Virus record (IMG/VR): IMGVR_UViG_3300009152_000021
Coordinates: 1-21,868 of that record
Length of the DNA: 21,868 bases
Direction: 5' to 3' (one strand)
Source of the DNA: a virus
The position numbers were made by a program, and so were the translations under genes. A model generated the notes under the pieces. That model did not search any database, was not told the origin of the DNA, and was given only the letters and a program-made list of their open reading frames with translations. Of this stretch, positions 940 through 4,946 are shown piece by piece; position 1 is the stretch's first letter; each line of letters begins with the position of its first letter.

Positions 940-1581
940 TTAACCCCTAAAGTTTTCGCCTAGATATTTTTTTAGCACCCCATATAGATTAGCATTGACC
1001 TGCTCACCTAATTGATAAGATGCTCTGTAAATCAATCTTTTTTCTTTGTACGCACCTGAATTGGCTGTACCTTGTAGTTTGCCAATAAAAGATTCACTGG
1101 CATTTCTATTACGGCTTACACGCCTTGTTCGGCTTCTTGATTTTGATGTACCAAAACCCGCCAACTCATAAATTATACCTGGTACAGATTTATTTACTAT
1201 GGCTAAAGCGGTTACTGAAAATGTTGTGCCTTTAACTCTTTGTACTTTAGTTTTAGCACTGCTCAATTTAATGCCGGCAACCACTTCTGATTGTGACCAT
1301 TTCCACCGGCTTTGTTTAGCATCACCAAAAGTTCTACCACGGTGAACTGTGTCATTAGCCCATCCCCATGCAGGTGGGTATGTTGGTTCAACATCACGCC
1401 ATCCTGGAAATGGAGAATGTGGCACAAAACTTTTAGCCAATTTTGCAACTGGTTTTACCGCTTTGTTTAATTCTTTTCTAAATTCTTTTTGTAGGTCAGC
1501 ATCCATCTTTTTCATTTTATCCATTACGGCATCTAGGTTTTCAACATAGATTGCCTTTAATGATCTATCCGGTGCTAACAT
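940..1581 (-). CDS. Putative tail/neck morphogenesis protein (HK97 gp10-like?)
   Basis: This 213-residue protein is encoded between the tail-assembly chaperones and the tape measure. Its ATG at 1581 overlaps the stop of the frameshifted chaperone ORF as TAATG. The N-terminal 50 residues are a charged helix rich in Lys and Asp/Glu. The middle is aromatic and Pro-rich (FVPHSPFPGW, YPPAWGW), and residues around 128-160 carry a strand-like segment followed by IYELAGFGTSKSRSRTRR. The layout of basic helix, then strand, then a GxG-type turn recalls HK97 gp10-type tail-completion proteins. However, those are normally encoded before the major tail protein, so the position here is unusual. I infer a structural or assembly role from context; the family assignment is weak. 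Confidence 0.55.
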   Translation of the reverse strand: MLAPDRSLKAIYVENLDAVMDKMKKMDADLQKEFRKELNKAVKPVAKLAKSFVPHSPFPGWRDVEPTYPPAWGWANDTVHRGRTFGDAKQSRWKWSQSEVVAGIKLSSAKTKVQRVKGTTFSVTALAIVNKSVPGIIYELAGFGTSKSRSRTRRVSRNRNASESFIGKLQGTANSGAYKEKRLIYRASYQLGEQVNANLYGVLKKYLGENFRG

Positions 1582-1999
1582 TATTTACGCCTAACTGTTG
1601 CCTTCTTATTATTAAAATGCCGTTCTTGCAAGATGGCTTTAATGGCTGAGTAAATCGCTGGATCAACTTCTAATAAATCTTTAGGGCTGATTCCTGTGGC
1701 CACCGACACGGTAGCGACTTCATAGATTGAGCCGTGTCGGTCTATCCATTTTTTGAATCATACAATAAATCAATATCCAAATACTGATTGATGTATTCAT
1801 CACTAAAGGCTAAATCCGTTTTTCCGGCATCTTTTTCTAGTCGCCAAGCAAACCACCACAGATCCGATTCCATTTGTAGTTCGCCTAATCTCTTACGCCA
1901 ACCTGTTTTAAATTCGGCTTCAAAAGCCACTTTTGCAGATGGCGTAAGATCATAGGTAATTTTCTTACCGTCTTTTTTAACAATCTCAATCTTGTGCAT
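1581..1999 (-). CDS. Tail assembly chaperone, -1 frameshift fusion (gpGT-like)
   Basis: This is the extended product made when ribosomes slip one base back at AAAAAAT (1754-1748). The shared part is residues 1-84 of the short chaperone. After the slip, 55 more residues are read in the -1 frame, from WIDRHGSIYE to ATVRRK, and end at TAA 1583-1581. The fusion is 139 residues. The extension reads as a real protein (LLEVDPAIYSAIKAILQE) and has no start codon or SD of its own, and the -1 frame stays open exactly up to the next gene's ATG. In lambda and most siphoviruses the gpG/gpGT pair coats the tape measure before tube polymerisation, and the gene pair sits just before it, as here. The frameshift product is inferred from sequence only. 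Confidence 0.85.
1702..1741 (-). promoter_or_regulatory. Stem-loop stimulating the frameshift
   Basis: The arms ACCGACACGG (1741-1732) and CCGTGTCGGT (1711-1702) pair perfectly over 10 bp, with a 20-nt loop. The stem starts six bases after the slippery heptamer, the distance at which frameshift-stimulating hairpins normally sit. The whole structure lies inside the -1 frame coding sequence. Confidence 0.8.
1742..1999 (-). CDS. Tail assembly chaperone, short form (gpG-like)
   Basis: This 85-residue protein starts at ATG 1999 after an AAGGTGG Shine-Dalgarno sequence and ends at TAG 1744-1742. It lies directly after the major tail protein and before the tape-measure region, the standard place for the tail-assembly chaperone. 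The sequence begins with a strand-rich segment (MHKIEIVKKDGKKITYDLTP) followed by helices with Trp-rich stretches (WWFAW) and an acidic C-terminus. There is no recognised catalytic motif. The last sense codons overlap the slippery heptamer, so a fraction of ribosomes should make the longer fusion. The short form is expected to be the major product. Confidence 0.85.
   Translation of the reverse strand: MHKIEIVKKDGKKITYDLTPSAKVAFEAEFKTGWRKRLGELQMESDLWWFAWRLEKDAGKTDLAFSDEYINQYLDIDLLYDSKNG
1748..1754 (-). promoter_or_regulatory. Programmed -1 frameshift slippery site AAAAAAT
   Basis: In the chaperone frame the codons read TCA AAA AAT GGA TAG. The heptamer A AAA AAT has the canonical X XXY YYZ layout. 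Slipping back one base re-pairs both tRNAs on AAA AAA, and the next codon is TGG of the 55-residue extension. The zero-frame stop lies within the six-base spacer between this site and the stem at 1741-1702. Confidence 0.85.
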
Positions 2000-2017: not shown

Positions 2018-2425
2018 TTACGCGCTTGTTGATTTTGTTAATGCAGTTACAGGAAGCGATACGCTGACCGAACTTACTGCATCCACAGCACCGTTAATTG
2101 GTGTCCAGGATGAAATTAAGCATGACATTGTATAACTAGGATTTGTAGATGTTACTGTACCTGATACCGGAATTAACTTGATATTCAGTTTTGAACCTAG
2201 TGCATCCTCAAACAATGAGTTCACAGATGCAGAAGCAAAATCATTGTACAGTTCAAGATTGAGTGTTGGGCGTTCAATCCCACCAATCATATTTTGTACT
2301 GTATCGTTCATGGCAGTAATTTCTACCTGATCAATTTCGCGTGCAAGGCTTACAGTGCTGACAAAACTGGTAATGGTAGTAGTACCCACAACCACTGAAA
2401 CTTTATTACCCATAAATATGGCCAT
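2018..2425 (-). CDS. Major tail (tube) protein
   Basis: This 135-residue protein is predicted to form the hexameric rings of the non-contractile tail tube. It starts at ATG 2425 with a strong SD (GAGAGG, six bases upstream) and ends just before the chaperone genes. The sequence is rich in beta strand, Ser/Thr and small residues (VSVVVGTTTITSFVSTVSLA, VSSVSVSLPVTALTKS) with few Lys and no Cys except one. This is the usual look of the tube protein beta-sandwich fold. It is shorter than many tube proteins and has no obvious Ig-like extension. Its strong SD and its place between tail terminator and chaperones support high-level expression as the tube subunit. Confidence 0.78.
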   Translation of the reverse strand: MAIFMGNKVSVVVGTTTITSFVSTVSLAREIDQVEITAMNDTVQNMIGGIERPTLNLELYNDFASASVNSLFEDALGSKLNIKLIPVSGTVTSTNPSYTMSCLISSWTPINGAVDAVSSVSVSLPVTALTKSTSA

Positions 2426-2440: not shown

Positions 2441-2851
2441 CTAACCTATCAATTCAACCGAATATTGATAACTTAGGTAGTCAATATTAGCGGATGTAAT
2501 TGTTCCAGGGCTTGCAGACACAACCCTGAGTGTTTGTACAGCACCGCTTAATGTTTTATCAGCCTCAATTGCGGTTTTAATTGAAGTTGAACCGGATGAT
2601 GCAAGTAGCCCATCCAATCTTGATTGTCCATCTTTTTCACTCATTCTACCAACTACAACAATTACCTGACATGTTGCAGAATCAAATCCTCTGTTTAATG
2701 TAAAATCATAATTCATGCTTAATTGGCCAACTATTGCAAAAGCATTGTTGGTTGGGATGTTTGTAGAATCAGGGACATAATCAAATACGCGCATACCTGT
2801 AATTGTGCTTAATGCCGTTTTTAAATTAGTTCTAACCGTACTGGGGGTCAT
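2441..2851 (-). CDS. Tail terminator / tail completion protein
   Basis: This 136-residue protein is encoded between the head-tail connector and the major tail protein, where siphoviruses usually keep the protein that caps the tail tube and joins it to the head. ATG 2851 overlaps the connector stop as ATGA, so the two are probably translated together. The sequence has an N-terminal helix (TPSTVRTNLKTALSTITG), then a strand-rich centre (CQVIVVVGRMSEKDGQ) and a long helix (RLDGLLASSGSTSIKTAIEA) followed by C-terminal strands. This alpha/beta order resembles tail terminators of the lambda gpU type. The assignment rests on order and overall composition; no diagnostic motif is visible. Confidence 0.6.
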   Translation of the reverse strand: MTPSTVRTNLKTALSTITGMRVFDYVPDSTNIPTNNAFAIVGQLSMNYDFTLNRGFDSATCQVIVVVGRMSEKDGQSRLDGLLASSGSTSIKTAIEADKTLSGAVQTLRVVSASPGTITSANIDYLSYQYSVELIG

Positions 2852-3587: not shown

Positions 3588-4946
3588 TTAGAAGGTTGGT
3601 GAGGCTAAGCCTGTACCGTTGATCTGAGCAATTGCGCCTGGATAGCGAAGTGATGTAAAGGCTGACATACCAAACATAACAATGTTGATTGCAACCTTGC
3701 CATTTGGCTCTTCAAACTTAACATAAGTAGGTGAACCAGTTTCTTCCCAAAGATGACACTCATTAAGATCAACCACAAAGATTGTATCTTGATTTGTGCT
3801 AGCACCAATATTGGTTGCAATGTTAGCATCTGTAATAATTGGCAAGCCAAGTATTGAGTAGCCACTATTGCCGTACGGTGGTGTACCTGCGCCTGTACCC
3901 ATTGCGTTCTGTGGGTTATATGCATTTGGTACTACAAGTGGGCGATTTGAACCATCTACTCCAGCCAATAGGAAACCTAAGCGGCGTGGGTGCATGATGA
4001 TTGCATTTGGATTAGCATAAATTGTTGATTGAATCTGTTGGATTGAATCTGCAATTTTTGGATACAAGCCTGCAACTGTACCTGTGGTCGCTGTGTAAGT
4101 TACCAAGATTCCGGTTGTCATGCTCTTTAGGCCTAATGGTTGTCCATTTGAACCTGATCCATTTAGAAGCGCATCATCAAGTTTTGTGTGATAAGCGCGT
4201 AACAAGTCTGCTAATACAATGTTTTCAATGTTGTATCCGCGTAGTAATGCTTGTTTTGAAATGCTGTTTTGTCCAGCAATTGTGTTCACATTTACTGTGA
4301 GTGTTGTGTCATCAGGATCAGTGCTTACTGCGGCAGTGTTCTCTGATGTTTGATAAGCCACATTTGTGCCTGTTGTGATACGAGATATAACCACAGACAT
4401 GCCCTGTGAAGGTAGTGGATGCTTGCGTGCGGCATCAGCGAACGGCCTACCGGCGCGTGCTAATGGTGCATAAAGATCAACTAAATATTGTGGTACAACA
4501 AGGCCTGCGAAGTTACCTGAATCAGATGCTCGCTTCTCAACTGCCATTTCTTTTTGGTGGCGTTGAATACGCTCTGATGCTTCGTAATCATTAGCAAACT
4601 GTGCTTTTAGTGCATCACCTAAGAATTTATCTGCGGTGCGCTCTGAGTAAGTTAGTTCCTCGCGTGTAACACTAAAGCCACCTGCGCGAACTTCTTTCTT
4701 TGGTTCAATGTTCGCATCAACCTTAGCCGCTAAATCAGCCGCCTTTTGATTGCGAATTTCAATATCTGACATCTGCTCAATTCTTTCATCCAACTTTTTG
4801 ATTTCCAAGTTAAGGGCTTCAACATTAGCCAACTCAACTTCTGATAGATCGCGTGCTTCTTCTGCGGCACGATCTAAAGTTGCTTGAATTAGAGATGTCT
4901 TTGATTCGCGCTTCTCGCGTAGAGAAACAAGAAATGTATTTGACAT
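3588..4946 (-). CDS. Major capsid protein (HK97 fold)
   Basis: This 452-residue protein starts at ATG 4946 behind an excellent SD (TAGGAG, four to five bases upstream). Residues 1-90 are charged heptad-rich helix (LREKRESKTSLIQATLDRAA, then ALNLEIKKLDERIEQM), the delta/scaffolding domain found in HK97-type capsid precursors and removed by the prohead protease. The mature part begins after roughly residues 90-150 (SGNFAGLVVPQYLVDLYAP is typical of the N-arm). The spine, P and A domain features include LDDALLNGSGSNGQPLGL, ANPNAIIMHPRR and the C-terminal FTSLRYPGAIAQI. Length and layout are normal for the family. The protease gene lies two genes upstream. The cleavage position is inferred. Confidence 0.93.
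   Translation of the reverse strand: MSNTFLVSLREKRESKTSLIQATLDRAAEEARDLSEVELANVEALNLEIKKLDERIEQMSDIEIRNQKAADLAAKVDANIEPKKEVRAGGFSVTREELTYSERTADKFLGDALKAQFANDYEASERIQRHQKEMAVEKRASDSGNFAGLVVPQYLVDLYAPLARAGRPFADAARKHPLPSQGMSVVISRITTGTNVAYQTSENTAAVSTDPDDTTLTVNVNTIAGQNSISKQALLRGYNIENIVLADLLRAYHTKLDDALLNGSGSNGQPLGLKSMTTGILVTYTATTGTVAGLYPKIADSIQQIQSTIYANPNAIIMHPRRLGFLLAGVDGSNRPLVVPNAYNPQNAMGTGAGTPPYGNSGYSILGLPIITDANIATNIGASTNQDTIFVVDLNECHLWEETGSPTYVKFEEPNGKVAINIVMFGMSAFTSLRYPGAIAQINGTGLASPTF

Follow-up and report, generated by a model that had tools for sequence, protein, structure and literature searches.

The DNA analysed here, referred to throughout as the window, is a virus record of 21,868 nt whose minus strand carries a tail gene locus (Table 1). 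The genes are arranged in the order major tail protein, chaperone candidate, extension, a gene of 160-240 aa, and tape measure; in the window, the tape measure was assigned from its position and from phage phiPsal1. The chaperone candidate ends GAT TCA AAA AAT GGA TAG, which places an in-frame X XXY YYZ heptamer at the 3' end of the zero-frame gene. Six nucleotides past the heptamer begins a hairpin, presumed to be stimulatory, whose arms ACCGACACGG (1741-1732) and CCGTGTCGGT (1711-1702) are perfect complements that form 10 bp around a 20-nt loop. The -1 frame remains open for 55 codons past the heptamer, and its stop (TAA, 1583-1581) overlaps the ATG of the next ORF as TAATG. Because the -1 frame also has a stop at 1760-1758, directly before the heptamer, the extension is unreachable from any in-frame start upstream. 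The predicted fusion has 139 residues, with the junction ...DSKN-WIDRHG..., and the peptides NWIDR and HGSIYEVATVSVATGISPK would mark the -1 fusion beyond the 85-aa part. Thus, two predicted products with a common N-terminus are encoded between the major tail protein and the tape measure. The 213-aa gene that follows resembles HK97 gp10 weakly, although a tail terminator is already present upstream, and a gene of similar size fills its place in distant relatives too.

Table 1. Features of the tail gene locus, in window coordinates
Feature	Position	Strand	Basis
Tail terminator	2441..2851	-	phrog_17840, E 4.2e-22
Major tail protein	2018..2425	-	phrog_4574, E 2.8e-13
Zero-frame ORF, 85 aa, gpG-like tail assembly chaperone candidate	1742..1999	-	Homologues in relatives
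Slippery heptamer A AAA AAT	1748..1754	-	Invariant in 174/174 window-clade loci
6-nt spacer GGATAG, including zero-frame stop TAG (1744-1742)	1742..1747	-	Sequence
Presumed stimulatory hairpin (stem 1741-1732/1711-1702, loop 1731-1712)	1702..1741	-	Fold and covariation
-1 frame extension, gpT-like, without its own start at the junction	1581..1754	-	Selection in -1 frame only; distant homologues
Next gene, 213 aa, weakly HK97-gp10-like (below Pfam cut-off)	940..1581	-	ATG overlaps extension stop

A first-pass annotation of the window had already described this arrangement, and its placement of the heptamer, the stop-containing spacer and the stem, together with the 55 open codons, the TAATG end and the 85- and 139-residue products, was reproduced from the sequence. 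It had also called the stem unusually clean. In the window, this is the sole perfect, non-overlapping 10-bp inverted repeat within 60 nt, and a perfect stem of at least 10 pairs starting 3-12 nt downstream is found at just 0.14% of window positions. Among ORFs of at least 60 codons, five end with an in-frame heptamer, and only the one described here also has a stem of at least 9 pairs together with a -1 frame that stays open over a long distance. The cassette RNA folds at -20.3 kcal/mol (z = -2.4 relative to shuffles). Elsewhere on the minus strand, a T TTA AAG heptamer occurs at about 10107, near the end of ORF 10541-10086 and without a long stem downstream; its long open -1 frame contains the next gene (10095-9346), and the heptamer is possibly there by chance.

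The first-pass annotation rested on one sequence; the convincing evidence is comparative. An IMG/VR scan produced 253 matching stretches, a set that later scans widened. The heptamer is unchanged and the extension open in all 174 loci of the window clade, a count that includes some contigs more than once and comprises 60 distinct 70-nt regions. Across these loci the TAG stop stays 3 nt past the heptamer, and the extension has 53-55 open codons, except in one locus where it runs for 51 codons to the end of the available DNA. One group has GCA in place of TCA before the A-run but retains the third A; the amino acid is therefore changed, while the A needed by the heptamer is kept. When loci were fetched with the major tail protein alone, so that the chaperone played no part in their retrieval, the cassette was intact in 73 of 74, largely on the same contigs as before. 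The exception, L342, has an intact heptamer and an internal loss in the upstream gene.

The substitution pattern in 76 aligned sequences indicates that the extension is under purifying selection as a protein, and in the -1 frame only. In that frame, 55 synonymous and 23 nonsynonymous change types were seen, out of 111 and 330 possible, respectively, while the other two frames gave 7/69 and 11/62 (synonymous/nonsynonymous). The stem is also conserved by pairing. Covariation in related phages had been proposed as a check, and among 61 distinct sequences pairing is kept in 99.0% of stem cells, 24 cells are altered on both sides, and compensatory changes occur at two pairs. Pair 18-49 is seen as A-U, C-G, G-U and U-G, and pair 21-46 as C-G, U-G and U-A. 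None of 500 shuffles matched the observed percentage paired or the covariation score, pairing fell to 29-51% in a control in which the stem partner was slid by one to three columns, and RNAalifold recovered the same stem minus one pair.

Distant relatives, with 17-28% identity, have the same two-frame layout with either A AAA AAA followed by the stop or C CCA AAA. Comparison of window and distant profiles gave E-values of 5.7e-9 for the first part and 1.4e-9 for the extension. The whole 139-aa query matched no named phage, and the window-clade profile matched no cellular genome; named relatives surfaced via the major tail protein and via the fusion of phiPsal1. (Rhodococcus phage Shagrat, which matched by its major tail protein and has annotated chaperones, was left out as a homologue.) Pontimonas phage phiPsal1 (MG835450) was reached through its major tail protein. 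Its gene 016 encodes a homologous 83-aa protein that ends DSKK, from the sequence GAC TCA AAA AAA TAA, and continues in the -1 frame into a homologous extension, for a total of 138 residues. The gene order is that of the window, as it is in most distant loci with enough sequence, where an intervening gene, mostly of 160-240 aa, precedes a long ORF. phiPsal1 differs from the window in having A AAA AAA followed by TAA and another downstream structure. EBPR siphovirus 6 (JF412301; L229, 1481-1850), reached via the phiPsal1 fusion, likewise encodes a homologous -1 extension, but C CCT TTG, 24 nt ahead of the stop, is its sole candidate heptamer.

The extension had been expected to escape automatic annotation, and it is indeed omitted from both of these records. 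GenBank lists only the short phiPsal1 protein, as hypothetical, with no gene covering the extension as such; the stretch concerned corresponds to 4574-4744 of our locus L110. Such omissions are consistent with a tool paper, which remarks that the joined chaperone annotation is missing from many phage records (PMC10885494). According to the paper on its host, phiPsal1 was lytic and then disappeared; the paper gives the phage no further discussion (PMC6106888). This frameshift goes undiscussed in papers on freshwater actinophages and phiPsal1.

Scans with the phiPsal1 fusion and with the extension family yielded 51 loci and at least 590 stretches, respectively. Fetching by the extension gave 79 loci. 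In 78 of them a -1 heptamer is followed 0-3 nt later by the zero-frame stop, the heptamer being A AAA AAA in 72 and C CCA AAA in 6; a Microbacteriaceae MAG has four loci with C CCA AAA. Relatives in which the slippery site is broken while the -1 frame is still read would have spoken against frameshifting. We sought them and found departures only in L117/L280 and, more loosely, in EBPR siphovirus 6. L280, the one exception among the 79, lies on the same contig as L117 and has a 1-nt difference (at about 3000) directly after an intact A7 run, which moves the extension out of the -1 frame. It is the sole such relative fetched, and the difference is either an error or a broken allele. Folding downstream of the heptamer in the distant lineages is better (mean z of -1.39) than in an upstream control stretch (-0.30), and 72 distinct A AAA AAA relatives yielded no consensus stem. 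The strong covarying hairpin belongs to the A AAA AAT clade, whereas distant lineages keep a heptamer without a common stem.

Scans of both halves of the fusion against Pfam and PHROG returned no Pfam match and no characterized PHROG; the only PHROG common to many relatives is phrog_6889, of unknown function. AlphaFold2 predicts a strand-helix domain for the 85-aa part (mean pLDDT 89.8) and a helical extension (pLDDT 82.6). A profile search of the sequences of solved structures gave no match, fold searches against solved structures returned only weak, unrelated rows and no convincing PDB match, and the close matches among viral models are uncharacterized proteins of uncultured phages.

From its anatomy, heptamer conservation, selection in the -1 frame, stem covariation and synteny, we infer that the locus is a programmed -1 ribosomal frameshift of the lambda G/GT type in a tail chaperone gene, as the first-pass annotation had proposed, and we put the probability of this reading at about 0.93. 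Several points count against it: no Pfam model matches and phrog_6889 has no known function, the L117/L280 contig differs by 1 nt right behind its A-run, a 213-aa gene rather than the tape measure follows the extension, and in E. coli AAT in the A site is a weaker shifter than AAA or AAG. The main rival is transcriptional slippage, in which RNA polymerase would gain or lose an A within the A6/A7 run and no ribosomal slip would be required. The run itself would suit such a mechanism (the window clade has A6, most distant relatives A7), but several lineages, including the Microbacteriaceae MAG loci, have only four A's in C CCA AAA, which weakens it, and a covarying hairpin six nucleotides downstream fits a ribosomal pause. 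We therefore consider transcriptional slippage improbable. Still less likely is that the extension is a separate small gene translated by re-initiation, for example from GTG 1709, which does open a 42-aa ORF. Protein-level conservation in the -1 frame already covers the segment between the heptamer and this GTG, a -1 frame stop stands immediately before the heptamer, and the GTG codon is ATT in relatives such as L209. Decay or mis-sequencing of a single original ORF, split by a one-base error of the kind conceivable in any one contig, has a negligible chance of being correct, given that hundreds of contigs, drawn from many samples, repeat the two-frame layout, as do distant relatives whose heptamers differ.

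If programmed frameshifting operates here, the majority of ribosomes would terminate at TAG and release the 85-residue protein. A minority would be paused by the hairpin with AAA in the P site and AAT in the A site; tandem slippage of the two tRNAs would shift their pairing to AAA AAA, one base back, and the slipped ribosomes would read 55 more codons to produce the 139-residue fusion. In lambda, the short form has the tape measure as its binding partner, and the T part the major tail protein (PMC5009743). By analogy, the 85-residue protein would coat the tape measure protein, the fusion would bring in the major tail protein through its C-terminal part, and the shift rate would thereby set the ratio of short to long forms. 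In the A site, the heptamer of the window clade presents AAT (tRNA-Asn), where most relatives have AAA. It is conceivable, if rather doubtful, that the strong, precisely spaced, covarying hairpin evolved in the AAT clade to hold the frameshift rate, such that the members of a single family could set one chaperone ratio by heptamer or stem interchangeably.

The putative frameshift is ordinary in kind, long known from phage lambda; the family has neither a Pfam name nor a characterized PHROG. These results add a large, unnamed family of candidate chaperones across uncultured phages, the C-terminal part of which is missed by ordinary gene calling, and phiPsal1 and the MAG point to Microbacteriaceae hosts for some of its members. 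The several heptamer types and variable hairpins would also serve as a natural series in which to study what keeps a frameshift rate within range. Compared to lambda, where the heptamer is G GGA AAG, the window has A AAA AAT, a further gene before its tape measure, and proteins that the chaperone models we used do not recognize. It nonetheless shares with lambda G/GT a slippery heptamer near the zero-frame stop and a short protein with a -1 extension from the end of its gene, located between the major tail protein and the tape measure.
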